From NCBI RefSeq assembly GCF_964275005.1, contig NC_092701.1, forward strand, positions 34,848,520 to 34,912,519: a stretch of DNA of 64,000 nt, read 5' to 3'. The notes under the pieces are model-generated. The model was not told the DNA's origin. It ran no database searches and saw nothing but the letters and a program-made list of their open reading frames with translations. The position numbers and the translations under genes were made by a program. Shown here piece after piece: positions 1 to 57,089 of the stretch. How positions within the stretch are numbered: position 1 is the first letter of the stretch; the number at the start of each line of letters is the position of its first letter. This DNA comes from Diadema setosum (taxonomy: Eukaryota; Echinodermata; Echinoidea; Diadematoida; Diadematidae).

Positions 1-1246
1 TAAGCCTTACATAGCGCGATCGAGAGAGCATCTAGAAGCCTTAACTAGACCGCAAGGGACTTTGCGCTCGTGATGTGCGCTTCGCGCACATCAAGTTGGA
101 GTCTCCCGTTTGCTAGGGGTTTCAGGCGGGAGAATCTCCAGATCAGAAGGTGCTTGGGGTTGGAGTCTCTGCAGCTGACGAGGAAAGGATGGAGAAAGGA
201 GGCAATTCGAAGAAAAAGAGAAGGAGAGGGCAACCCATCAAACGTCTGGGCCTCCATTACTCCAGATTATGTTTCCAATGTTTGAGAGAAAAAAAAAATC
301 CTGCTTTCACTGCATGCACAATAAGTCAGAGCTGAACGTAATTAGGCAATCAAACTATGACCTTTTGTCGGACGCACTCCATACCGTCGACAAATTGATA
401 GGAAATGTCACTTAAAAAATCACAAAGATGCAGCTAAACGGAAATAGAGCAGTAGTAGATAGGTTGATTACAGATTAAGTGATCTAACTGTTTTCACTTG
501 AATGTAAAAGTTAGTGTTAAAATTGTAGAAAATATTTAAAAATGTCTGAATCAAATCTTAACTGGAATCTTTTCATACATTCATCAGTAAGACTCAGGTA
601 CGTCTAAAAATAGGAGATTGCCTTTAGAACATCACATAACCATTGAATTTCACATACTTCTTACCAAGTGTTGCCAAAAATTCTTTGTTTGTCTTCAATA
701 ACACTTTCATACATTAGTTTATTGTAAAATGCAAAACATTCTATATTTCATTCTTCTTTGTAACCAATCAAATCCTAGAAATTGTTTTCCGTGGTTTGGT
801 GCTGTCTCTTTTATCATGATTTGAAGTCTTCATTGTTAGTGGCTCATAAAAAGGGGAAAGAACCCTCATTCATTGATGCCATTTACTGTTTAAATAGTGA
901 TTGCTCGTGTCGGTTGCAGAGTCTTGAAAGAAACTCTTTAAGGCCAAATCTATAACTGTCTCTTAAATCAGCAACATGCTTGAAGAAGACAAATGTTTCT
1001 GTTTCTCTCTAAAATTGGAACACTTTTGCAAATTTATTTCTGATTTTGTGTGTGTGTAAATTTACTGAATTTGATCATTTGATCATTTGATCTTAATACG
1101 TAAGTCTTTGTCTAATACAAGACCTGTAGTGAAGTTCAAATGTGCTGAGTAAAAGATGGCAAGGCAATTATTTTTATACCAAAATTCCCCAGCACCGGAT
1201 GAGTTAAGTTAATGAAGTCTAGACAAACAATTAATTGCTTTCTCAC
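1..1246. other. Last visible intron of the SLC16-like gene; nothing recognised
   Basis: AT-rich sequence left of exon C. I looked on the minus strand for the missing helix 11-12 exon and did not find it. Short open frames at 45-335 have no family resemblance. Confidence 0.5.
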
Positions 1247-2533
1247 CCATAACGATTCCACTGACAGGGGCACCGACACCACTGACAAAGAAAATGATGG
1301 ACAGGGCCGCCTTGAAGCGGTCATCGGGAATCTTGATTTTCACTAGGATGTTGATCAAGGTCGTCTTCACTCCGAGAGTGAAGCCGTTGAGGGCAGCAAG
1401 GATTCCCAGGAACCAGAACGAAGAGGCGAGGTAGTTGATGAGGAACGCCCCTCCCGCTACGACGCTCATCACGACGTAGAAAGCATCGTTATCCATCCAG
1501 ACCTTCTCCGCAATGAATCCGGCGACGAATCGACCGGCGATGTCGGCAACGCCACCGATCGTAGCCAAGAAGACAGCCTCATCCGACGGGATGCCCTTGG
1601 CCTCGGCATTGGGGATGAGGAAAACGACCCAGGCGATGTAGGTGACGGCGTAGAGCACGACGTTGATAGAGAGCACGGTGAATACCAGGGGGAAGTCTCT
1701 GTAGAGATAAAAGTCGAATGCCTTGAGGAAGGTTGTAAAGCCGCGCCTCGCTACTGGTGAACAACACGTCTGCGATTGTTGTTTGCACTGACCTTCGTAT
1801 TGTAATATGACCGTCCTCGTGCGAGGGGAATGTCCTGTCGAATTTTGTGCAGATAATTCTACAAGTGACGATTTAGACATTATTGGCCTACCTCGCTCTG
1901 AACTATCCATCGCCAAGAATAAAATTCTTGAGGCCATGTCTTCGCGTTTTGGTGAGCTTTGACTTTCAGATGCACAGCTCTCTTCACTTTCGTCATCTCT
2001 CGGTGAAGCAGGAGCAATGGTGAAGTTTACGCGATCCCCTTTCGAGTTCGACGAGCAAGTACAATCGGCATCATTCACTGACGACTCCAAAGATGAGGCA
2101 GATACGTTTGCTTCCATCGAGGGCGTTTGTTCTTTGTCCTCATCACACAGGCAGTCCTCGACCTCCAGAGAGGTTGCTATCGTACTGGAGTACGTTATGT
2201 TCGCGCTCACAAAAGAAGACTCGTTCCACTTGGCTTCTTCGAGGAACACCGGCCTGTAGGCGTGGTCGGGATTGCTACCAGCGACTCGCCCTTGAGGTTT
2301 CGAGGGCTTGATGAGGGCGCCGTACACGACGGAGTGGAGGTTCAGAGCTCCTAGCATCAAGAGAGCCGACTTCCAGCCATAAGCGTCAGTAATCAACTGG
2401 GTGACGACCGGTAGGATCATGTTCCCTATGCCACCTCCTGCTATGAGGACGCTGGAGGCTACCTGGAAAGAATCAGGGAAGTAGTCTGCAGGACATGCGT
2501 TCGCCAGAATCACAAGAGCGCTGTAGCCGACAC
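1247..2533 (-). CDS. SLC16-like gene, coding exon C (helices 4-10 with long central loop)
   Basis: A 1287-bp exon. The first 75 or so residues hold helices 4-6 (VGYSALVILANACPADYF, SSVLIAGGGIGNMILP, GWKSALLMLGALNL). A loop of about 200 residues follows, rich in Ser, Asp and Glu, as in the longer SLC16 members. Helices 7-10 follow from YLYRDFPLVFTVLS to VSGVGAPVSGIVM. Helix 8 keeps Asp and Arg four residues apart (ADIAGR), equivalent to the pair known to be needed for transport in MCT1. The acceptor is ttctacag|gtgtcgg at 2534; the donor ATGG|gtgaga lies at 1246. The frame stays open a little past the donor, but the conserved helix 11-12 sequence is absent there, so the donor is preferred. Confidence 0.88.
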
Positions 2534-5334
2534 CTGTAGAAGGCAAGGAAAATGAGATTCGTTCAAACGTGTCTTCGTCTTCCAAGTCTCCTATCGACTT
2601 GAATGAACACACATATTTTCACGAAGTTTTCTTTGTTCACATTGAAACTAAGACGAAAAACCTTCTACTTTCCACATCACACTAACAATAATTGTTGTGC
2701 CATAATAACCGAGCTGTGACGACACGGTAGGTAAGAATGATGATGATGACGATGATGATGATGAAGGCAATTATAATGATTTTGATCATGATGATGACGA
2801 TGACGATGATGATAATAACATTAATGGTAATAATGATAAAAATCATATCGATGATAATCATGATACTTCGGAGAGTGCTCAAGGCGCATACATACCATGC
2901 ATACAATATAATAATCACCCCGGTCACTGGATAGGCCTACATCATTTCCAACTAGCACTGACAGTGCTCACTCTCAACTCCCTGGGGAGCATTCCAGCTC
3001 GTCGCCATCTAACGGACGTACACATGCTGACCAACAAACATTCTCATCCTACCAAGTACCCATTTATATTTCTGGGTAAAGAGCAGCAATGTGAACAAAG
3101 CGCCTTGCTGACGGGCAAATGTGTCGGGCTGCTTGGGGCTCGAACCCACGAACCCAAATCACGCTCATGTGATTAAGACATTCATAAGAAGAATCTAGTA
3201 GCTGCTGAAACATCGACCAAACGCATGATTCTTGTAATACTTGTGTTTTGTTTTTGTTTTTGTTTTTAATGTATAAAGCAATGGGTGAGTTGTGATGTGA
3301 CTACATCATCACTACTTCATCTATTTTACGACTGCGGCTGCGATCAATATCGACACCTTTTCGTGAAACGCCTATACTATTTTGAGAATTCATTTCACTC
3401 TATCGATTTCGGCCAAGTTGAACATGGAGTGAGATTATATTGCCCTATAGATGTATGATTATGACGGCAACCAAGCGTTATGAGATAAATCAGAAGATAT
3501 GCATTATTTGTCTTTCAGAAATTTATTGTCTCACTCAACTAGGGCCGTGCAGTTAATGACCAATAGCTCGTTTACCTTTTGAAATGAAACTCGAAATTCT
3601 CTCTGACGACTTTTATAGAAAAAAAAATAAATGGTGATGTGCCGTCAGGTATGATTGTATGAAGATTGTCCACAGTTTGTCAAAAGATCACGTGTTCCTG
3701 TGTCTTAAAGATGTCAAGGTGGCTGTCACCCAATCTTATGGATTGGCGAAATTTCACTCGTATTTAAAAACTCATCAGATAAATAGATACTTCATCACAA
3801 AAGTATCGTCATCGATTGCAAACCATGTGATGAGGCGGTTAAAATTGCTTGTCATTAATTGTATTTAAGATTGATGATACAATGCAATGGGTTTTGACAT
3901 ATCATTTTACCGTTGCATGAGGCGCCCGTTTCTACAATCGGCTCAAAAAGGACAATGTCGGTGTGATATCTTCTCAAAGGAAATCCCATTACATATAGGC
4001 CTATACCTTTTTATGAACAAAGAAATTGGACCACCGAACAAGTAAACGAGCAAACATACAAACGAACGAACAAACAGAAACACACAAACAATCTTTAGAT
4101 ATGACATTTCTTATAAGCTGCTCAATAAAACACGTCCCCGTACTCAGCCTCCTGATGGTCATTCAAAGAAATTCAAAGAATCGTCGGAAACCACTTAGAT
4201 GGAGCAATGAAGGCATCTTCGGAATGCTGTAGGAAATAACAGCTCCTTGTGCAACGTCTTCTTCTCTAAAACAATAATAATATGGAGAAGCCCTGCCAGC
4301 CTTTATTGCCAAGGTAGTTTATCATTCAGTGATATTGCAATGTCAGTACGTATAGCCAAAAGCAAGGTTATATTGGTGGCTTTTTATGGCAAGAGTACCC
4401 ACAAAGGCTCAGACGGAGGACTATTTTGAGCCATCCATCAATCCTGAACCTCCGCGCGGCACTGGAGGGTTCCTAATGTTCAGAACATGGTGTATGTCGT
4501 AAGTAATTCTAGCGGGAATGTTGGGGAGTATGTCACAAGAAGTATGTGCGCACTCACCAGGATATATTATAATGGTTACTTTGGATACAATCATCCGGTG
4601 TGATTAATGGCAGTCGTAATATCTGCCGATTGCAAGGGGTTGAGGAGGAGAGAAAGAGAACAACCATGTTGTCGTTATAACTAAATGATTTGAATTCGTT
4701 TAACCCTGTCGGGATAATATTCTAAATACTCCATTGCTATATTGCGTGACAACGTTAACCGCGATAGCGATGGGGTTTATTACTTCATACGAAATCATAA
4801 TGAGAAAGCAATCAACGGAAACAACTGACTGTATTGTATGAACGCTATCAAGGTTTGATATTTGATGTTCTCGCAGATTCCTATCCTCATGTGTATACAA
4901 TTTGTGTTTGTGTGTGTGTGTGTGAGTGTGTGTGTAGGTGTGTGTGTGTGTGTTTTTTTTTTTTTTCTTACTGGGTGTGTAATTTCTGTGTAATTTCTGT
5001 GTGTGTAATTTCTGTGTAATTTCTGGGTGTGTAAATTTCTTACTGGGTGTGTGAGTGACAGGGCATATTCGGATTGGCTTGATTAGGCTGATCAAAATAG
5101 CTTTTTCTGAGAATTATGCAGAATTTCAAGTCATTTCTCTTATTAAAACAGGGTATGATTTGGTAAAAAGACCCAAATATATCGTACTGTATGTTTGAAA
5201 AATGATTTAGTAGCACAACAAAGAAGAATACAGCTGCTTTTTTTTTGTTGGTGGACATATCAACTTTATTGTTAATATGGATTTGATATTGAATGAAACT
5301 CAAATAAAGAATATTATATAAAAAAAGTGTTGGT

Positions 5335-5797: not shown

Positions 5798-8103
5798 TTG
5801 TCTGTGTGTGTGTGATTTGTGTTCTATATACGGATATTAATCAAGTTTATGTGGGCTGCCTGCTTGGCAAACTTGAACAACTATTTTATTGGCCTACCAG
5901 GATAGACTGAATACATAGATGACACAACTTATCAAGGATTTTCCTTTGACATGGAAAACCCATAAAAAAAATTGTACTAGGCCTATCCGTGTTTTCAGGT
6001 TTTCTGCATCAAAAGTAACAGCATATTACATATATTGCTTATTAGCTGAATATGCTAATTCGACAAATAAAGATAATTGCCCAAAGCTGTCAGGGTGGTA
6101 AATGAGGTTAATTTTACTTATGTCATCAGTGGCATACATTCGACAGTCTGAAAAATAGATGATAGTTAGCAAATAAAGATAATACATGCATACCGGCAAA
6201 GTACAAAGTTATGTTTTAAAAAAAGAGAGAGGGAGAGGGAACTGAAAGGTTTACTAAAACGCATACTTGTATATTGTGACCCGGGTCTGGACTGAGTAAT
6301 GTTGTGTGTAAGCATACCGTCCCCTCTAGCAAGAGGCAACACACTCTGTCCCTCGGATAGGACATAAAATGGAGGTCCCGTGTATGAGAGAGTCACAACT
6401 CATGCACGTAAAAGATCCCGCTTCATTCATTCATCGCAAAGAGCAGGGTGTTTAACCCGGTGAAGTGGTCCCGCCTCACATCCAACTGGACCCCATGGAA
6501 GACCAGCTTAGCATAGCTGATTATGGGCTATCCAGCCATCTTCACAGATGGAAATGTACAAACAAACAAACAAACAAACCACTCAAAGAATTCTATGAGA
6601 ATACTGAAATAGCAGATACTTAAAACAGATAATATTGACAATCAGAGATATTGCTACCTAATGATGTTTCATATATAGGGTATCAATTATTTATATGAGG
6701 CGAACGATATTCCTTTAAAAAAAAAAACTAATTTGAATACATATACTTTCGATGTCGATTTGGGCAATTCGAACGTAACTACAACATCATGTTCTACTAA
6801 AGGATGTACATTCAAAAAGCAGACGCAATAAGAAATATACTGGACATTCTCCCTTGACATCACAACCAAAAAGAGTTTATTATGCTGCATTACCGGTGCA
6901 TAGCTTCCTGAGGATAATATCAATATTCCCAAACCCTGACATTCCGGCAGGATTCTAATCGCTTCTTTGCCGACCTACTCGCGTCGGAGGTGGTGATAAG
7001 TGAACGTTCCATCATCAATCTTGATTCTGCTACTGGAGTATATCATACGATCAACGCGTCCATTTCTTCACGTGTCTGCATTTTATACGAGGCAGGGGTG
7101 TCGTTCACCTCATTGTATTTACTGTGCAACTTCACTTAGTGCTCAAGAATGACTGCAATTGTTTCTTCAAAGTTATGCAAGTTTACAGCTTTTACATATC
7201 TTCGTTTCTTCAAAGTTAAAGTTATGCAAGTTCACAACTTGTACATGTTTTCAAGAAACAAATTAGTATATCAACCTTGTTATATAACGTGTATAACCCC
7301 AGGACTCTTACTCGGACAGGAGACAAAATCCTTCCCCACGCCTACACTGTAAAAACATGGGTGTTAGATTTAACACCACGGGTGTTAAATCTAACACCGA
7401 TCAAACTTCAAAGGACCACACCCACAGGTGTTAAAAATGCATTGTGATGGTGTTGAAAAGTGTTCACCTGACACTTCGTGGTGTTAATTTGACACTGTAC
7501 CTGGTGTTATTTTGACACTGTACTGGTGTTAATTAAAAAATGACACCACATGGTGTTGATTTGATACTTGTTGGTGTTAATATCAATGGTTTAACACCCG
7601 TCCAGCTTCAATAAGGGACCACATCAGCTGGTGTTACTTTGGTGTAAAATTATTTTCACATTTTTTCAAAAATCTAGTATTTTAATGTAAAATTCTTGAT
7701 CGTCTTGTTTAAATTAAAAATAAACAAGAAGTGCTGTTACTAAGAAACTCTTCAAAAAACAGTTTAAAATTTGGAAATGACACCCGGGGGTGTTAATTTA
7801 ACACCATAAATGAGCACCGAAAATTTAACACCAGCTCGGTGTTCACTATTTAACACCGGACTTTTTGCAGTGTAATATGAAATCAGATCCTCCAGAGTAT
7901 TCGGAATCAGCATCGCTAGCAGTTTTCCAAAAATCCTTAAAGACTTTTTCTTTTCGATAATGAAATTGATTGATTAATTATGTATATTTCATATTTTCCA
8001 TTTGTTGTTTTTCCCTTATACCCCTTAATGTAAGTTTGATATTCTTTTGTGAAGCGCTGTGATGCATCCTCACTCGTCAGAGCGCTATATGAGTACGCTG
8101 TCG

Positions 8104-23600: not shown

Positions 23601-26600
23601 AATAAAGATAAACAAGGATGTCATACAAAGACGGATTGGTAGAAATGAAGAATAAACATGATACAAGTACAGCTTAAAAGAAAAACAAAAAACGCCCGTT
23701 TGGGGCACCTCAGAAAAAAGGTTATGTTAAAGGACATAATGTAATAAACCAGATGGGGGAAATGGAATAACATATGTGGCACCAGGATAACATGGCTATA
23801 AGAGAGGTACATTGTAAGGATACACAGTGAGTGAGGGGGGGGGGGGGCATTAATCTGAGGTAGCCAACAGTTCGCACAGAAAATAAAATACATGTACATT
23901 GTATATCATTGATTAATACATCAAATAATCATCAAACCTAGGTGGGAGGCGTCGGGAGCGCTGAGGGCGCCCAGTGGGGGTCACATGGGTGGGGGGACAA
24001 CCTGGACCGTTAATAGTCGGAACAGTGGGGGCAGGTTCCTGGGGCAGAGGGGGAAGGGGGGCTTCAGGAGGGGGCTCCTGCAGGGGGACACACGGGACAT
24101 CTGGCCCAGGAGGCAATGAGAGTTCCTGTGGAATGTCTCTGCAGGTGTCCGGGGGGAGCAAATCTCGCTCGTCATCTGGGGAAAGCAAGTCTGTCTCATC
24201 TTCGTCGGACATCTGGTGCTGGGGAGGAGCCACAGGGGGAACAGGGACCCTCATGCATTGCGATGTCTTTACACGATATGACGATTTTCTGAGCTGAGAG
24301 CCAATGAATTTGCGAATGTTACACCACTTGCCATCTATTGATGTTACAAGGTATCGAGGGCGTGCGGAGGACTTGCTGCGATCTGACCGCAGATAAACAA
24401 GGTCCCCAACTGCGAGAGGGTCATCATTGGGGAGGATGCGGGAGGGAGCCTTGGAACGCTCGCTGTGGGGATGGTTCGAAAGGCGCTGTTCATGTTGTGA
24501 AGAGATGAGGTCTGCATCCGACAGTGGAATTTGGCTGTGCGTGAATTGGTCGCGCTGAGTCCACATTTCACGTGCAGAAAGGCCACGCGAGCGAAGACGG
24601 CTATTGAGTCGGGCAGTGGCGAGGGACAGGGACAAGGATGTCAGTGGTCCTCCGGAGGGCTCATGCCGCAGGATTTCATCTTCGAGTTCACGAATGGCCT
24701 TCTCAGCAACCGGGTTCTTATTGGGATTTTTGGCATGACCTACTTCAATGGAAAGGTGAAACTGGGCGAGCAGGGCATCATCTTGTAAGGAGGCGAAACC
24801 AGGGGCGGGGTCGGTGCGGATGACAGCAGGGGGCCCATCGAGCGGGCGAAGTTCCACACAGAGACGGATCAAGGTATCGCGAAGAGTATCTCTGCGCTCA
24901 TCTGGAAGGAAACAAGTGGCGGTGTAGGAAGTGACACATTCGCGGAGAAGTAAAATCAGTTGTTTTGAGCGCTTGATGACATCAGCGGCGAACGATGTAC
25001 CCACGGCTGCGGGGGGATCGCCAGTGGTCTGAGGGACAACCGTGTGTGGAGCATTCCGCAGGGATGCACACTGATGGCAAGTGTCGGTGACACGTGTGAT
25101 GGCAGAGTCCATGTCCAAGGCAAAAAAATGCCGGTTGACAACGGTCTTGAGTTGGTGGTGGGTGGGATGATCAAGTTGGAGATGGAGTGAAGTAAGCAGG
25201 CCATCAAGAACGCTACGGGGGATGATGATGCACTCGCGAGGTGACAGGAGAGCCTGTTCACGGCGGACAACCAACAGCCCATCTCTAGCTATGGTAGCAA
25301 CACGGAGATAGCGTTTGACGTTTTTGATATTGGTCAGTTTCTTAGAAGGTCGGGTGCCCTGGAGAAGGTGAGCATGAGTGCGTCGCAAGTCTGGGCACTC
25401 AGATTGTATGCTGACCCACGCTGGACGGGAAGTGAAGGGTAACTTCTGCTTCCCTGTGAGCACGTCTGTAGGGGACACTCTGTGAACAACAGAATCCTCT
25501 GTCTGACGAATGAAGAGGCATACCTGACAAGAGGAATCAGTGCACTCTGGGGCATTCCTGCTAGCAAAATCTGACGGAACATTGGCGGATCCAGCCAGAT
25601 GGAGCACGGCACATTGGAACCGGCTAACTGTGGACAGGAAGGTTGACACACGTGGGCTGGCAGAGAACTCACCACGACAGAGTTTTTCAAAAGCCTGTAC
25701 ACAGGGCTTGCTATCTGTGAGAATGCATGGCCGGTGCTTGGACTGCACAATGTACGGGCTGAAATACTTGCAGGATGCTGCAATAGAAAGGGCCTCTATC
25801 TCACATGGGAGCCAAGTAACCTGCCGATCACGAAGTTTGGAGCTAAAGAAACCAGCTACCTGTGGCTTTCCTTGTCGTGTTATGTACAATGTGGCACCAA
25901 TACCATGATCTTTGACAGCACCATCAGTAACAATCCAAAGCTGGTCGGATGGTCGGGGAAGGGTAATGGCACGGGGGGAGGCTAAGGCTTCCTGAGCGGT
26001 CTTGAAAAATGAACGCAGGTCATCGGACCAATCAATGCGATCACTCGACTGACCACCAGCAATTGCGGCGTCCAGTGGTGTGAGGAAGATAGCGCAATGT
26101 GGGAGAACACGGGCGAGCATCTTATATGCCCCAATGAAGGAACGCATTCCTTTCACAGTAGTAGGAGGGGGGCATGAGGCAAGCGCCGCAATGCGATGAG
26201 GGCTCGCTTGTAGGGTCCCTTGGGACCAGATCCAGCCCAGGACAGTGGTAGACTTTGGGCAAATCACAGTCTTACGGGCTGAAAGATGAAGGCCTGACTT
26301 TCGGAGGGCATGCAGGACACGTGACCAATTCTGGAGGAGCTCCTCGGGGGTATCACCACCAATGAACAAGTCGTCTGCAAGTTTCACAACAATACCTTCC
26401 ACAAGTAGATCCCCAAGCACGCGACACATCAGCTCTTCAAGAGCAGTTTCTGAGCCTGGCATGCCCATGGCACAGCGTGTATACACACGGACTCCACGAT
26501 AGGGGGTTGCAACACCACAATACTTCATCGAGGCCTTGGACAGGGGAATTTGATAAAAAGCATTGGTGAGATCTGTGGCAATGAGATGTTTCCATTGACC

Positions 26601-29600
26601 AATTTTTCTGAGGGTGGAATCCACATCAGGCATAAGGGAGGGCTGAGGCTTGGCATAACGGCCTACATCGGCAAAAGCTGTGACAAGGCGGAAGCCGCCG
26701 TTGGCCTTCTTCACAAGGAAGGATGGATTCAGGTACTCAACAGAGATGCCCACATCTTCTGGGCGAGCAAAGACACCCTGTTGTTCTAGTTCATCGAATT
26801 TCTCTTGGAGATCAACCAAAGAGTTACGGGAGTAAAGTGGCAAGCGACCCTTGCGTTGGGGAGGCTGAACCGGGCCCATGTTGACAACGGCCTCAAACGG
26901 GCCAACAGCACCATTATACCCAGTGAAGGCAGGGTCAAAAACATCATCGAACTCCGCATGGAGAGACTGAAAGTCATGTTTCGTACCAATGGGGATAATG
27001 CAATCAGGATCGAGCAATATTGGGTCAGAAAAACGATGCTCAGTATCACGTGAGACACCACTGGGCACGGGCCTATCGGGTACACGGGGGAGGTCATCAG
27101 ACTGAGGCTCTGAAGGAACGTAGACCGGACGGACCTGGCAGAAATGTTCATGTTTACGGATCAGGCGGGGTTGAGGCGTAAGATTAGGGATACGCACTTT
27201 GCCTGCTACACTGGAGACCATGCACGGTTCAGGCCAAGATGGATCAGTTGGGGGAACACCTTTCTGAGGGACAATCCTGGGCTCAAGGGCAAGTGTGTCA
27301 TGAGACAGTAGCTCATCAGGAACTGACAGCTCGACGAATTCACCAGGCAAAAGCACAGTAGACTGAGATGGGGCACGAAGGACATGAGCACGGCGAACTG
27401 CATGTGTCGCATTGTCCGAAGGCCTGCGAGAACCATATGAAATGATCATGTCATCACCCACACACACCTGGCGTTTAGCAGGACGAACCGACACATCATT
27501 GTGCTCCATGAATGGGGTACCTGCGAGTACTTCTACATCAAGATTATCAATGACCAAACCCTCAAACACGAATGACTTGCCGTCACGAGTGAAGGACAGA
27601 GTGGTCTCCCCAACAACATCAAGGGGGGAAGACCCATCGGCTTGATGAGCAGACTGCGAGCTGGGTTTTATGACACCCTGGAGGGACTGGACAGTAGAAG
27701 CTCTGATCATGTTACCAGTAGCACCACTGTCGACAGTGATGCGAACGACCTGGTGCCCGCAAAACGCATCAAAATATGGAGACTGACGGACCTGGACTCT
27801 GAGGGCCGATGAAGAGTCGCTGGTAGCCGTATCATCCTTCAGAGGGACAGGCTCAGACAGGTGGACCTGTTCAACTTGGCACAAATCATCAATCTCATCA
27901 TCAGACTCTAAAATATGTGCAACCTGGCGGGCCTTAGCAATGAATCGCCTGTCTGCTTCGGGTAAGTACGTACACTCACTTAAATAATGAGTGTCTGGCC
28001 GGCGCGCTTCACGACAGAGAGGACAGTATTTACTGTTGCGCTGGGGGGTGCGAGTCTGCAGATTGCGGCGACTGCGGGGCATTGGAGCACGCTGGGGGCG
28101 TAGGCCTACAGGGCGCGGGGAAGGGGAGGTCAGGGTGCGCATAGCACGAGAACTCTCTGTGGTGTGGATTTCATCCAAAAGACTATCTAATGCCTGAGAG
28201 ATTTCGGGTTTCAGTGAAGCTAGGGTACGAGAGCGCAATTCTGTCCCGTAGCGCTGCTTGACCAGGCGAGGAAGATCTGAATGAATGAGTTGGAGCCAAG
28301 TGAGGACGATAAGGTTTTCCAACGTGGGAGTAAGCTCCTCATCTTCGCTAACACGCTTACCATGGTGAGTTATGCCACCTGCGGATGTGAGCAGGTTGTC
28401 TTCGATAAAGGCCACCACCCTTTGGTAGAGGTCCTCAGGACGCTCATCCGGCTCTAGTTTGATGTCACTGAAATCAAGAAAGTGAGCGCCGGTACTTTGA
28501 AACCCATAATGAAGCCTGATCTTCCCCCAAATATCGTTGAGGGAGGTGGAAGTCTTGACTATGGAATTGCGTGAGATAATGGGACAATAATTAGCAATCT
28601 GTCCGAGCATAAGCTCAAGCATACTGGCTTTCTGGTGTGCTGATTTTCGAGGCCCAGTCGGGACGCTTTCTGGGTCATCAACAAAGCCACGGAGTGGGCA
28701 AGATTTAGATTTTTGAGCCCATGAGCAATCATCATCTAGGAACGGCGCAAAATTTGAGTCTAGGGTGAGAGTGTACACTAAGTTTTGTCGCCAATTTTCG
28801 AATGAATTGACTGTTTCACGTTTGGTGAGACACCATTGCTTGGGTGCTCTTGGAGCTGAGGCCATCACTAAAGCCTATAGGTGGGACCGTAATGTAAGAG
28901 AAAAACAAGGAACTTACACCAACTCTGGATCGTTGGCCGATTTGGAGCTCAGCAAGCTTAACGTCTGCTTGTGCAGGTGAAAACAAATCCTCAGGAGTAG
29001 GTAACGTTTCCAGAGCTGCCACCACGTAAATGAGAAGCAGACACAAATCGAGTTTCCGAGTAAACAGTCACCTTGAAGGCATTTAATGGAACCCAGCTTC
29101 AGACCAGATACCCAGCAGTGTGTAGCAGACAGTAACGCTACAGTCACCGAGAGGTGGCGCTATATAACAAGCTTGACTTGTAACATTGATAATCATTAAC
29201 AACACTGGCGTTGTGCACTGGCATTTACATGTCTAAAAGCAAAGTTAAATAAATTCACCTGTGAATCTAACTGGTAGAGACAAAAATGTGCAACTGAATG
29301 GAAATGTGACACCATTTGTGTCTGCCAACACCAAGCAGAATTTCCCTCTTACCTCCTTCACCTCCTTCACTTCCCATCACCCAGACGTGTACCACACAAC
29401 ATTTGACTATCCAAGCAGTGCAGATGTGGAGAGGCGACTCGTTGAGCCCCCTGAAGGGTGCGGCGAGGCGGCCATGGTTGACCGCCTGGTCCTGTACCAC
29501 CGATTCATCCCTGGCCTGCAGACAGCCTTTGAGAAGTACACCAAGGCCATCAATGCTGACCAGCCCAAAGCTGATGTTTACTCGCAGGGTACGGAGAAGA

Positions 29601-49289: not shown

Positions 49290-49820
49290 CACTGTAAAAA
49301 CATGGGTGTTAGATTTAACACCACGGGTGTTAAATCTAACACCGATCAAACTTCAATAAAGGACCACACCCACAGGAGTTAAAAATGCACTGTGATGGTG
49401 TTGAAAAGTGTTCACCTGACACTTCGTGGTGTTAATTTGACACTGTACCAGGTGTTATTTTGACACTGTACTGGTGTTAATTAAAAAACGACACCACATG
49501 GTGTTGATTTGATACTTGTTGGTGTTAATATCAATGGTTTAACACCCGTCCAGCTTCAATAAGGGACCACACCAGCTGGTGTTACTTTGGTGTAAAATTA
49601 TTTTCACATTTTTTCAAAGATCTAGTATTTCAACGTAAAATTCTTGATCGTCTTGTTTAAATTAAAAATCAACAAGAAGTGCAGTTACTAAGAAACTCTT
49701 CAAAAAACAGTTTAAAATTTGGAAATGACACCCGGGGGTGTTAATTTAACACCATAAATGAGCACCGAAAATTTAACACCAGCTCGGTGTTCACTATTTA
49801 ACACCGGACTTTTTGCAGTG
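49290..49820. mobile_element. TA-flanked foldback element (MITE-like), copy 2
   Basis: 531-bp copy of the element at 7345-7872 in the same orientation, with the same CACTGTAAAAAC...TTTTTGCAGTG ends and TA flanks. By eye only a dozen or so substitutions and a three-base indel separate the two, so they spread recently. It lies 1 kb upstream of the second GPCR. Confidence 0.75.
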
Positions 49821-51162: not shown

Positions 51163-53771
51163 AGGATATGTTTATCTACGGTTTTCACTCAGCATGATAG
51201 TATAAATGACCTTTTAGAAGAGCTTGAACGAACCTTAGCGCTTGAAATGAAAAGCAGGGTTTGGACACAATGGCGATGACGTGTGCAAATCAATACACAG
51301 GGCGTATGGTTTTATATTTTCTTCATGATAAATAGAAACTGATACTTTTGATAAAAGGTCTATCCCGAGGTGGTAATATAGGATTACACCACCTTTTCAA
51401 AATGTGAAAAGTCTAGTATAGCTGAAAATATTAACAGCTCTCACTACCGTGACACATTGTATCATCTCACTTACCCCGCTATAAGCCTGTGATCTGCCAT
51501 TCATTTTGATTTCATTGATGTATACTTTGTCTAACTTGTCAAAATACTTTTTTCCATCTCTTCCTGAGTCTATAAGATCGATGTGCCTTTTGAACTTCCT
51601 CTTCTCTCAAATCCATATGTTATGGTCATTTTATGAGCGATAGTCAATTGTCTTTTTTTTTTCTCTCTCTCTCTCTCTCTAGTCAGTGCTAGTAATTTCA
51701 CATCATTATTTTGTTCATGAAATTAATATCTGCTTGTTAAGAAAGTGTGCGATTGCAATTAATGATGATTATTATTTCAAGAAGCATAATAATGATCAAG
51801 ATTATGATGATAACTCGAAGATAACTACAAAGACAACGTGATCAGGATGGCAGTGGTTTTAAATGATATATTGGCGCACTCTTTCCTTACGTACTATTAC
51901 TTTCCCTGGATGTTAGTATATGGTGTATGAAGTAATAATCGGGCACACTTCATACCTTAGAGAAAAGGTGAGAGTTAGGGCTGTTAAGTTATTCTTCCAC
52001 AAGCGCTTAAGGTGTTATGACTGTTTCCCATTAGCTCTTTCATGAAGCTCCGTTGTATACAGTTCCTTGTCTATGGCTCCGTTGTCTACGGCTGCGTTGC
52101 TACGGCCGAAGCGGTTGCATAACAACAGGTTATGCACAATTAATTTTTTTTTTTTTTTTTTTTTTTTACTTACAAGCTTTCAGACTGGACTCTTTCCAGA
52201 TTGAGTAATTTCTATTAAGCGTTTGAATCGAAGGCGGTTGAGTAAACAAAATGCAGCTGATATTTGTGATTCTTTTTATTTAATCCTCTTTCTCTCTCTT
52301 TATTTGTCTCTATGTTTTTGTGTCTGTATGTTTTCGTGTGTCTGTGTTATTGAGACGGGCCTTAGTATTGTTCGCTACCATAAATTCTCTTCGTTTCCCC
52401 AGTCCCCCTGAACAAACCGTCATAGCTTTTAATTACCCGTCGCCATGATTTATAACAAGCAGAGCAAATATTATCAGAATCCAACATGGCCGAGGATTTG
52501 TGACGCATGTTTGTTTTGCCCGAGATTATACAATAACATTCTATTGCTACATGAATATACTTGCCTTTTGTTCAGCTTAAATCGGAATAGTTGTGCAGTT
52601 CTGATTTTAAAGAATATTATCTTTCTCATCATCACCTGTATAGTTTTGTCCCATTTACACATTAATTAAAAATTTTCGAAGTTATTCGTATTTCCTTTTT
52701 TTTTTCAGTGGTAGCTCTGGTGGATGTTCATGAACATGTGTGGGTTTTTTTTAACATTACAGTCTTCATAGCGACAAGACAATCAATTTCGTAGCAACAT
52801 ACATGCAGGTTTTGACAATGGATATAAAGCAAAATCGATCCTTTGGCAAATATTTTGGTGTCTGTGTGGATATAACGATTCCTTCATAGGCTCTTTTAGT
52901 GGTGCATCTCTGGGTTCAATTAGTTGATTGATTTTGCAATGGATGGACGCTCCTGTATACAGTGAGCTGTTTGATCCAGAAATAACAGTTAATGCTGTCA
53001 GTGAAATAAAACAGCAGTTGACTTCTTTTTTTCTCTCACGTGATTGACTATTGTAAAGGTCCTAGTAATTAAAGTATACGTGAAACATCGACTCTCAAAA
53101 AAAAAAAATCAGGTTGGAAATCTCCATGTAATCCATAGGGGACGAGCAAACCTCGTGTCTGTTTGTGGAATTATTTATGTTAGAGCAAAGGGTGCGTGAA
53201 AAGAAGTGTGGTCATAGGGACACCACTGAATTATTTGATAGTCCTTCAAACATCTGGATATTCCGGGCACGTTCCACAAACTTGGAGTATTTGTGCTCAC
53301 ACTGACCTGTCCTATCCTTGCACACGGCAAGTAATAGCAATCACGTCAATGTCAAATTGTTGATCACGCTCTCCATCGGTCGCCGGTGAATGTTGGCGCC
53401 ATTTCTTGTGACGTCACATACACTGATTTCGACGTGACAGAACAAAGATGCCTCTACGCAATAGCAGCATGATGAAAATAGACACACTGCATCAAACACT
53501 AGTAGGTGACCTACATGTACCATATACATCAGAAACATTGTATGTGTATAGTCATGATAGTTTATCTGAACGACAGGCATTCCAGATTTAAAAGGAACGT
53601 TCACATTAGTTCACTCTCTCACTTAATGCTATTGAGTTCCTCACGCACACACAAATGGTTAAGACCGCCTCCCTGGTTAAGACAGCCAAGTTATCTTGAA
53701 AGCCGACTTATTGTCGTCTTGAGGGAGGAGGGGTATCGGGGCTCAGAATGCTTTCGGGTATGCCATCAAAC

Positions 53772-56700
53772 ATGGGCGTAAATCCCGGGGGGGGGGGGGG
53801 ATGGGGGGGATATATCCCCCCCTGAAATGGAGGAGGGGGGGATGGCCTGTACAATCATCCCCCCCTGAATTTTGAGGGGAAAAATGGAGGAAGCAGAAAT
53901 GTGATTGTATCAATTTTGGCATATTGCATGACGTTTGTACGCCGGCCTTCAGACAGGTAACAGAGCTGAACAGTATTCTATCTTGTAGGAAAATGTATGT
54001 AATTTTCTCAAGCGCTCGCTCGCTTCGCTCGCTCGCGAAGAAAGTAACATCGACATACACTGTAAGGTATGGCTCAGGCGTTGACAACGTCAAATAGTAT
54101 AGGTCTACATGTAAACATGCTATATGACGCGAGTAACTGGGGACCATCTGCAAAATATGTACGAAAACATACAAACAAACAATAACAACAACTTTTATCG
54201 CCATAATTGAATCCCCTCCATTTCCTGAATCATTCCTGAGAAACGACGATGACTGATGACTCAGTCAGGATACATCTATGGGCATACCCAGGGAAGATCA
54301 GGGACGTCGAATCTATGGGGGGCAAAGGGGCATTTGCCCCGCCCCAAAGGAAGTGTTGAGACAGACAAATCATTTATCCCCCAAGCAATTCCCGAGATGA
54401 GGACAAATCTCGAACTTTCTTAATGGAAAATTGTCCAAATATCGCCAGAACTATGCACCAGATCGTTGTATTGCAATCATGAACATGCAAAAGGTCCGCT
54501 ATACAGGATAAGGGATAAACTTTGTACACTTTTGACATAGACGTATATTCCCTAATTTATCAAAGAGTGTGCAGCAGATCTTTCACTTAACAAAAGCAAC
54601 CTAATATGTATAGAGGCGTCGATGGGGGGGGGGGATGGTTCTCAAATAAAAGTGGGACAAAGAAAAGCTTTTGGAGTGTAAAATGTTAAAATTTTAAAGC
54701 TGGCTCGCTCCGCTCGCTCGCATTAACCGCTATGCCATTCTCCTGATGTTGCTGCCAGTGATTGACAGGAGGTGCACCCGGTGCGCCCCCCTTAATTTCC
54801 AAAACGAAAATATAGCTACAAACGACAGTTTTTAGGACTGGAAAATGTCAAAATTTTCAAGCTCACTCGCTTCGCTCGCTAGCATTTTATCAGTATGCCA
54901 TTCTCCTGATGTTGCTGCCAGTAATTGCCGGCAGTTGCGCCCGGTGTGCCCCCTTAATTTCCAAAGCGAAAAAATACAGCCACAAATGGCAGTCTTTGGA
55001 CTGTAAAATGTCAAAATTTTCAAGCTCGCTCGCTCCGCTCGCTCGCATTTAACCGCTATGCCATTCTCCTGATGTTGCTGCCAGTAATTGCCGGCAGTTG
55101 CACTCGGTTTGCCCCCTAAATTTCCGAAGCGAAAAAGTATAGCTACAAACAGCAGTTTTTAGACTGTAAAATGTCAAAATTTTCAAGCTCGCTCGCTCCG
55201 CTCGCTCGCATTTAATCGCTATGCCATTCTCCTGATGTTGCTGCCAGTGATTGTGAGCAGGTGCGCCCCCCTTAATTTCCAAAGCGAAAAATATAGCTAC
55301 AAACGGCAGTTTGGGGACTGTCAAATGTCAAATTTTTGAAGCTCGCTCGCTTCGCTCGCTCGCATTTAATTATTGTTCCATTCTCCTGATGTTGCTGCCA
55401 GTATAATTGCCAGCAGTTTTCGCCCGGTGCGCCCCCTTAATTTCTAAAGCGAAAAATATAGCTACAAACGGCAGTTTTGGGACTGTCAAATGTCAAAATT
55501 TTGAAGCTCGCTTGCATTTAATCATTATGCCATTCTCCTGATGTTGCTGCCAGTAATTGCCAACAGTTTTTGCCCGGTGCCCCCCCCCCCCCTTAATTTC
55601 CAAAGCGAAAAAAATACTAGTACAGCCATAAAGGACATGTGGGACTGTAAAATATCAAAATTTTCAAGCTCACTCGCTTCGCTCGCTCGCATTTAATCGT
55701 TATGCCATTCTGATGTTGCTGCCCGATTGCCGGCAGTTGCGCCCGGTGTGCCCCCATAATTTCCAAAGCGAAAAAATACAGCCACAAACGGCAGTCTTTT
55801 GACTGTAAAATGTCAAAATTTTCAAGCTCGCTCGCCCCGCTCGCTCGCATTTAACTGCTATGCCATTCTCCTGATGTTGCTGCCAGTAATTGCCAGCAGT
55901 TGCGCCTGATGCGGCCCCCCTTAATTTCCAAAGCGAAAAAGTATAGCTACAAACGGCAGTTTTTAGACTGTAAAATGTTAAAATTTTCATGCTCGCTCGC
56001 TCCGCTCGCTCGCATTTAATCGCTATGCCATTCTCCTGATGTTGCTGCCAGTGATTGACGGCAGTTGCGCCTGGTGTGCCCCCCTTAATTTCCAAAGCGA
56101 AGAATATAGCTACAAACGGCAGTTTTTGGACTGAAAAATGTCAAAATTTTCAACGCAAAGAGATTTCACCGTAGGAAGGGGAAACCCCCTACCATACCCT
56201 CCCCCCTCGCTTGATTCGTTCCCTCACATAACCGCTCCTCCTAAGATCAAATCCTGTCTACGCCGATGATAGGCCCCATTATTTAGTAGGCCTTCACAGT
56301 GATGTCGCACAGCAAGAGCTAAAATACCACGATTTTGTCATTCAATAATATATTGTGAATATTTCATTTTCTTATTGTTTTTTTTTTAAAGAAAAGAAAA
56401 CAAAATTTTCACAAGTGAGCACCAGATCGCTGAATTTCAGGTCTGAAAATGCAAAATTTTCCTCGTGTGGGAGAGGGATACCCCGACACCCTTCCCCCGT
56501 TCGGTCGTTCCGCTCCCTCTCACAGATATTTCCAAAAAAAAAAAAAAAAATGTTTTCATACTTTTAAGGTCTGATTTTCCGCCGAAAGTCGTCTGACAAG
56601 CAAAAAAAAAAAAAAAAAAGCAACAAGAACAAAAAGTCTTTATGTTGTTGCTGCCACTTTTCTCCCACTTTATATTTCATGCAAAAGAGTGGGGCATCCG

Positions 56701-56881
56701 ATCCCTGTAAAGTGTGTGAGTGTGGGGGGGGGGGGGGAGGGGGGCACAAAGCTTCTCCCCCCCCCCCCCCCCCCAAAAAAAAAAAAAATAAAAAAAAAAA
56801 GGCTGCGCCGGTCCGGTTATGGGCTTGTAATCGTGGTGATGGTGACCATCCCCCCCACTCCTCAGTATGGATTTACGCCGT
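53772..56881. mobile_element. 3.1-kb non-autonomous DNA element with 11-bp target duplication
   Basis: Left end ATGGGCGTAAATCC and right end GGATTTACGCCGT are imperfect inverted repeats. Immediately outside, TGCCATCAAAC occurs on both sides (53761-53771 and 56882-56892). A duplication of 9-11 bp is typical of Mutator-like (MULE) transposons, so that superfamily is the best guess. No transposase frame is visible; the interior is G/C homopolymer tracts plus a 160-bp minisatellite. Confidence 0.65.
54655..56160. repeat. 160-bp minisatellite array, about nine units
   Basis: Unit 155-164 bp: TGTAAAATGTCAAAATTTTC, then the core GCTCGCTCGCTCCGCTCGCT, TATGCCATTCTCCTGATGTT, GCTGCCAGTAATTGCC, and CTTAATTTCCAAAGCGAAAA. 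Cores lie near 54704, 54863, 55023, 55186, 55341, 55505 (shortened), 55668, 55827 and 55990, with a partial unit at the end. Unit lengths are not multiples of three and indels occur freely, so the minus-strand frames across it are not a repeat protein. Confidence 0.88.
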
Positions 56882-57089
56882 TGCCATCAAACGGAGCACA
56901 GAGTGTTAGAAGCCATTGGGAATCGGGTTATTGTGAAAAGACACAAGACTTGGCAGAAGGAGAAAGTCTTCAGGTGAGATCGGTACCCCATGCGGGTTAA
57001 ACTCAGAGCTCATTATTCTCTTATTCTCTTGTGTGTTTCGTCGAATATTGAACATATATTGTTCTTGTACCACATGAAAACATGACTGC

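Follow-up and report, generated by a model that had tools for sequence, protein, structure and literature searches.

We analysed a 64,000-nucleotide stretch of the genome of the sea urchin Diadema setosum (contig NC_092701.1, positions 34,848,520 to 34,912,519; hereafter the window). It holds a 3113-bp element, one copy of what we call family A, in which a tandem array of a 163-bp unit lies between two non-coding arms, and which is flanked by an 8-bp target duplication (Table 1). We interpret this element as a member of an abundant non-autonomous hAT family that carries the array and is moved by a hAT transposase from elsewhere in the genome, with a probability of about 0.87. An annotation made from the letters alone (the original prediction) had placed a Mutator-like element with an 11-bp target duplication at 53761..56892.

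Borders and contents of the window copy

Comparison with other copies showed that the element runs from the C at 53771 to the G at 56883. A C preceding ATGGGCG and a TTG following GGATTTACGCCG are constant in copies showing both ends, and the ends of the element are therefore CATGGGCGTAAATCC and GGATTTACGCCGTTG. The inverted termini described in the original prediction are present, with 13 of 15 positions identical between CATGGGCGTAAATCC and CAACGGCGTAAATCC, while its span was corrected to 53771-56883. The predicted 11-mer, TGCCATCAAAC, does occur exactly, at 53761 and 56882 and nowhere else in the window, but its TG is flanking DNA at the left site and the last two bases of the element at the right, and its final C opens the element at the left site and is flanking DNA at the right. 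The 11-bp repeat is thus the 8-bp duplication CCATCAAA plus three bases that agree by coincidence.

About nine units of 160 bp had been predicted inside the element, and we found 9.2 copies of a 163-bp unit (54669-56153). Two frames of at least 120 amino acids (aa) overlap the element, at 53743-54204 and 55700-56095, the latter within the array. The predicted lack of a transposase frame held for 53743-54204, the one of the two that the Pfam scan covered, which had no Pfam match.

Table 1. Parts of the family A copy and its target duplication, in window positions.
Feature	Position	Strand	Remark
Non-autonomous element, family A, 3113 bp	53771..56883	+	borders set by comparing other copies
Left copy of 8-bp target duplication	53763..53770	.	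CCATCAAA
Right copy of 8-bp target duplication	56884..56891	.	CCATCAAA
Left terminus	53771..53785	+	CATGGGCGTAAATCC
Right terminus	56869..56883	-	reads GGATTTACGCCGTTG on + strand
Perfect 20-base inverted repeat	53803..53822	+	GGGGGGGATATATCCCCCCC, near left end
Left arm, non-coding	53771..54668	+	includes one partial unit-like motif at ~53997-54036
Tandem array, period 163 bp, ~9.2 units	54669..56153	+	
Right arm, non-coding	56154..56883	+	

Copies across the genome and their target duplications

We searched the genome (912.7 Mb, 102 contigs; the window is C17:34848520-34912519) for the exact left end and found 1021 occurrences (498 + 523), with none for a reversed control. Window bases 53700-54300, used as a query for close copies, returned 1573 first-look candidates, and all 40 that were scored matched at 95% identity or more. 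Twenty of these were retrieved with flanks; as close relatives of the window copy they form a biased set. Both ends lay inside the 6 kb retrieved for 18 of the 20, and the other two, one of which carries a nested insertion, were completed with extra sequence. A perfect 8-bp duplication flanked every one of the 21 close copies (these 20 and the window copy), two of which, ATATATAT and GTGTGTGT, fall in simple repeats and so are little informative.

A rule-based sample of 14 copies was drawn from 100 listed of the 1021 exact left ends (places 1, 16, 31, 46, 61, 76, 91 and 8, 23, 38, 53, 68, 83, 98). The right end was present within 5.5 kb in ten, eight of which had a perfect 8-bp duplication. 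Over the aligned part, the left arms of the sample were 81-96% identical to the window copy, so the association of array and element spans several subfamilies; units were present in 12 of the 14, and none were seen within 5.5 kb in the remaining two (L035 and L045).

With 1021 left ends against a control of zero, and duplications in 21/21 close copies, the pair of 11-mers at the ends of the window copy is not a product of chance. We rejected a larger segmental repeat, which the original prediction had named as a possible refutation, as flanks and duplications differ between copies.

Two copies contained further structures. At L013/L030, a nested insertion of ~2.7 kb, with long inverted ends beginning GAAGGGGTCGGTGCATTATAGTG, lies between the array and the right arm of one copy. 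In L035, a divergent copy, frames at ~1604-2960 read a repeated motif, NIKANIRHLFYHRTEL, and variants of it, which is another tandem repeat.

The array travels with the element

The arrays of the 21 close copies comprise 9 to 24 units and begin at a constant place, with ~960-1000 bp ahead of the first unit anchor. We typed units by similarity and counted their order by eye: the array starts BAAC in 16 of the 21 copies and finishes AAD in 18. Among 262 units, the nearest relative was in another element for 187 and in the same element for 52, with 23 ties. The common unit order, and the nearest relatives in other elements, indicate that the parent element already held the array and moved with it. 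In this respect the original prediction was right, in that it proposed a non-autonomous transposon with inverted termini by which a tandem array is dispersed. Blocks of several units are repeated within L009, L022 and L028, and we infer that unequal exchange or slippage alters array length. In L032, a portion of the array is inverted (~2052-2343, element orientation).

Superfamily assignment

The base preference of the target duplications was counted over 30 perfect cases (21 from close copies, eight from the sample and one from locus L038, described below). Scoring each for T at position 2 (T2) and for A at position 7 (A7) gave 42 hits in 60 chances (p ~6e-10, with 0.31 expected for each), and just one of the 30 had neither; G1 was present in 15/30 and C8 in 11/30. 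According to the excerpts of the papers cited here and below, Hermes prefers nTnnnnAn targets (PMC10368747), and both P elements and hobo fit an 8-bp length with a T2/A7 lean (PMC3276498), so the nTnnnnAn motif by itself cannot fix the class. A non-autonomous P-superfamily element moved by a P/THAP transposase would leave such duplications, and the P target motif GTCCGGAC (PMC3276498) agrees with the lean at G1, T2, A7 and C8. We consider this origin quite improbable, as the sole coding locus found between the same ends, L038, shows hAT domains, although no search was made for a P transposase.

The predicted Mutator-like (MULE) identity did not stand. A non-autonomous MULE with a 9-11 bp duplication would account for the exact 11-mer flanking the window copy, but 8 bp suffices in every one of the 21 close copies, the remaining three bases of the 11-mer belong to flank and element, the targets show the nTnnnnAn preference, and the coding copy, L038, has hAT domains. 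Mutator was therefore rejected, and even with no search made for a MULE profile we find this explanation hardly credible. Helitrons and Helentrons, which are not known to create a target duplication, were rejected because 8-bp duplications are present. Merlin elements have duplications of 8-9 bp and ends that start with GG (PMC8101967), and were rejected because the ends of family A begin with CA.

Because the 8-bp duplications lean to nTnnnnAn and because L038 has hAT domains between the same ends, the element is most likely a non-autonomous hAT. Were this so, a hAT transposase produced elsewhere in the genome would bind the element ends, CAWSGGCGTAAATCC, excise the element and reinsert it with an 8-bp stagger, leaving a separate 8-bp duplication for each copy. 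The 163-bp array would travel between its two non-coding arms, and would expand and contract inside the element by whole blocks of units.

Several observations weigh against the assignment to a non-autonomous hAT. The consensus tip of hAT elements is YARNG, from which the left tip (CATGG) departs while the right tip (CAACG) agrees. Our transposase search was aimed at hAT domains, and none was made for P or MULE. In the sample, two of the ten copies with both ends lacked a perfect 8-bp duplication: the flanking 8-mers of L033 differ at 5 of 8 positions, and the flanks of L047 give a 7-bp match that is offset by one. The right end was not found within 5.5 kb in four of the 14. Further points concern L038 and are given with that locus.

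A candidate partner locus

A search of the genome for Dimer_Tnp_hAT gave 40 matches. We set these against the 100 left ends on the list, all of which fall on contigs C1, C2 or the start of C3, and one match on C1 lay 6.4 kb behind an exact left end; this locus is L038. It has a left end at 135 and right ends at 1693 (inner) and 8699 (outer). At the outer right end, the full 15-bp terminus adjoins GTTTGGGT, an 8-mer also present immediately before the left end; the bases after the inner right end (ATTACGCA) are unrelated. L038 135-8699 is thus composite, with one left and two right ends and a matching 8-bp duplication for the outer pair only. DUF4371 (E 2.4e-19) and Dimer_Tnp_hAT (E 5.9e-10) matches lie between 1693 and 8699.

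L038 also holds points against our interpretation. It is a single, composite case with an extra right end at 1693; three of its five scanned frames had no Pfam match, and its coding pieces are spread over several frames, through introns or damage. Allowing up to 2 mismatches, the genome has no second copy of the junction between the inner right end and the coding body, and the outer right end matches non-autonomous copies over the last 34-45 bp only. These last two features would suit a non-autonomous copy lying beside an unrelated hAT gene, with the matching 8-mer arising by chance, as would our failure to find a second locus with these ends and a comparably close transposase. Such a chance arrangement is unlikely, as the full outer terminus abuts the same 8 bp as the left end where the inner end does not, and a chance 8-mer is expected at ~1 in 65,000 per pair, with two right ends tried.

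If L038 is a genuine partner, two histories fit its structure. In one, a non-autonomous copy and an adjoining autonomous element were mobilised jointly by way of their outermost ends; in the other, an autonomous element received a non-autonomous insertion, and the stretch between both left arms was lost. The coding body of L038 had no match in the window, and matched L031-L037 over the last 42-45 bp only, in two of the seven. Its DUF4371 piece had 28 matches in the genome, the best non-self ones being 39% over 161 aa and 45% over 130 aa, with short ones of 51% over 59 aa and 64% over 28 aa. Presumably, a transposase of the L038 type or a related one moves or has moved family A.

Two other loci with hAT domains, L039 and L040, hold distant relatives (39-40% identity, ~75 aa). 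No family A ends were found in L040 at up to 3 mismatches, or in L039 save for 3-mismatch look-alikes inside a 268-bp repeat. Near its hAT-domain match, L039 (~218-4020) holds ~268-bp repeats, seven one way and then eight the other. Ahead of the transposase domains, frames in L038 (~2115-2190, read by eye) and in L041 (5856-6146, minus), a further hAT locus, contain the motifs KQKTLHSFF and KKQLALTSFF, respectively, which we take to be PCNA-binding-like (PIP-box) motifs.

The unit outside family A

An exact 22-base anchor of the unit occurred 6381 times in the genome (3121 + 3260; control 0). We surveyed the first 100 of these places by eye, which reach up to 29.8 Mb on C1. They form 23 clusters, the longest of ~3 kb, and the exact left end of family A lies within ~3 kb of 15. 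The absence of any longer cluster among these places does not bear out the predicted seeding of free satellites. Seven of the eight clusters without an exact left end were retrieved (C1:4166816 was left out): two belonged to family A, three to a second family, B, one (L052) had its units behind a stretch also present at a third hAT locus, and one (L055) was unassigned. The original prediction would have fallen had other units never been bounded by these ends; most clusters do adjoin the left end, and those units that lack these ends mostly do so because they are carried by other transposons.

The unit might instead be mainly a free genomic minisatellite, with transposons merely inserted beside or into it. 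The eight clusters with no exact left end nearby would be expected in that case, but five of the seven retrieved are in recognisable transposons and one has the flank of a hAT locus, and in the 21 close copies the array sits between the same arms with a common unit order. We therefore regard a mainly free minisatellite as very improbable.

The two family A clusters, L049 and L050, have altered tips, with arms of 91% and 93% identity. The three family B clusters (L051, L053 and L054) have a start of their own in common, CATAGGCGCCGGAAGTGGGGGGG; their flanks before it differ, and after it they are 93-96% identical. The family B terminus is CATAGGCGCCGGAAG, compared with CATGGGCGTAAATCC in family A. 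We extended two of the three loci. B1 is 1513 bp long, terminates in CTTCCGGCGCGCCTG, holds ~6 units and has a perfect 8-bp duplication, ACCATGGT; B2 is 1420 bp long and holds ~5 units, without a duplication (ATGGTATT compared with TTTGATAC). The best matches between family B arrays and the window array show ~80-84% identity. When low-complexity sequence was filtered out, a 23-bp GCTCGC motif, itself within the unit, was all that the arms of the window copy matched in family B; with the filter off there were short G- or C-rich matches in addition. The 163-bp unit thus occurs in a second family, whose ends differ from those of family A and whose arms are unrelated to it.

There is perhaps a third family carrying the unit. 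At L052, units lie behind a stretch common to L031 and L041. L041 encodes a related transposase (38% over 171 aa, 56% over 66 aa and 27% over 170 aa) and has the tip CAGTGGCGTAACTAC; a right end of this hAT was searched for and not found. One unit-like piece (88%, ~142 bp) lies immediately behind a second hAT-like tip in L041, CAGTGGCGGATCCAGG, and an almost identical tip, preceded by the same stretch, occurs just ahead of the arrays in two family A copies, L031 and L033. At these few loci, the arrangement suggests that the unit may once have been subterminal sequence of another hAT-like element. The 163-bp unit, found as arrays in families A and B and singly in L041, could tentatively be seen as a passenger that changed vehicles, a proposal to which we give slightly less than even odds.

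Surroundings in the window

Six window frames were scanned, with matches to two rhodopsin-type G-protein-coupled receptors, an MFS transporter, a sulfotransferase domain and a reverse transcriptase, a set indicative of animal DNA. A 1651-aa frame at 23913-28868 (minus) resembles a retrotransposon polyprotein, with reverse transcriptase, RNase H and a weak integrase zinc-binding match. The same pair of tandem repeats with 21-bp and 23-bp units occurs at 7359-7534 and 49304-49482, ~42 kb apart.

Discussion

Family A resembles hAT elements such as hobo, Hermes and the DUF4371-bearing hATs, which we take to be Tip100-like, in its 8-bp nTnnnnAn-leaning duplications and short imperfect ends, and the DUF4371-bearing group in its partner locus, where DUF4371 and Dimer_Tnp_hAT occur together. 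It differs in being non-autonomous, in its long internal array and in the left tip CATGG. A link between hATs and satellite formation has reportedly been described by McGurk and Barbash in 2018 for tandem hobo and double insertions; in those cases it is reportedly the entire element that is tandemly repeated, whereas family A tandemises a short internal unit.

Array-carrying non-autonomous elements are already known from other superfamilies. Helentrons with central repeats (CgHINE, DINE-TR1; PMC9659126) are likewise dispersed and carry satellite-like arrays; they are non-autonomous, Helitron-type, rolling-circle elements, whereas family A has inverted ends and 8-bp duplications. Tetris/TIR-220 of Drosophila virilis is also a non-coding DNA transposon with variable internal tandem repeats, but it is a foldback element with the repeats inside long inverted repeats and with 8-10 bp duplications, and its authors placed it in Mutator (PMC4079207). 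Longer satellite-like arrays have been reported for it (PMC4079207), and none were seen here for the family A unit. The Xenopus miniature inverted-repeat element miDNA4 and Pearl/CvA of bivalves (PMC9659126) also hold a satellite monomer inside a non-autonomous DNA element; they belong to other superfamilies, and the likeness noted here is one of element structure. The cases of tandem-repeat-carrying transposons in the excerpted review table are not hATs (PMC9659126). We found no hAT element of such a kind among open-licence PMC titles and the starts of abstracts, which leave Repbase and most subscription papers uncovered.

Carriage by transposons bearing tandem repeats has been proposed as one way for satellite DNA to reach new sites. 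In family A, with at least ~1000 copies, the 8-bp duplications mark separate arrivals, L038 names a likely mover, and the order of unit types permits array growth to be traced in each individual copy. The occurrence of one unit in families with different ends is the aspect most worth following, as it makes vehicle switching by a minisatellite testable. If such switching is real, a minisatellite could outlast any one transposon family, through nested insertion or through exchange between arrays.

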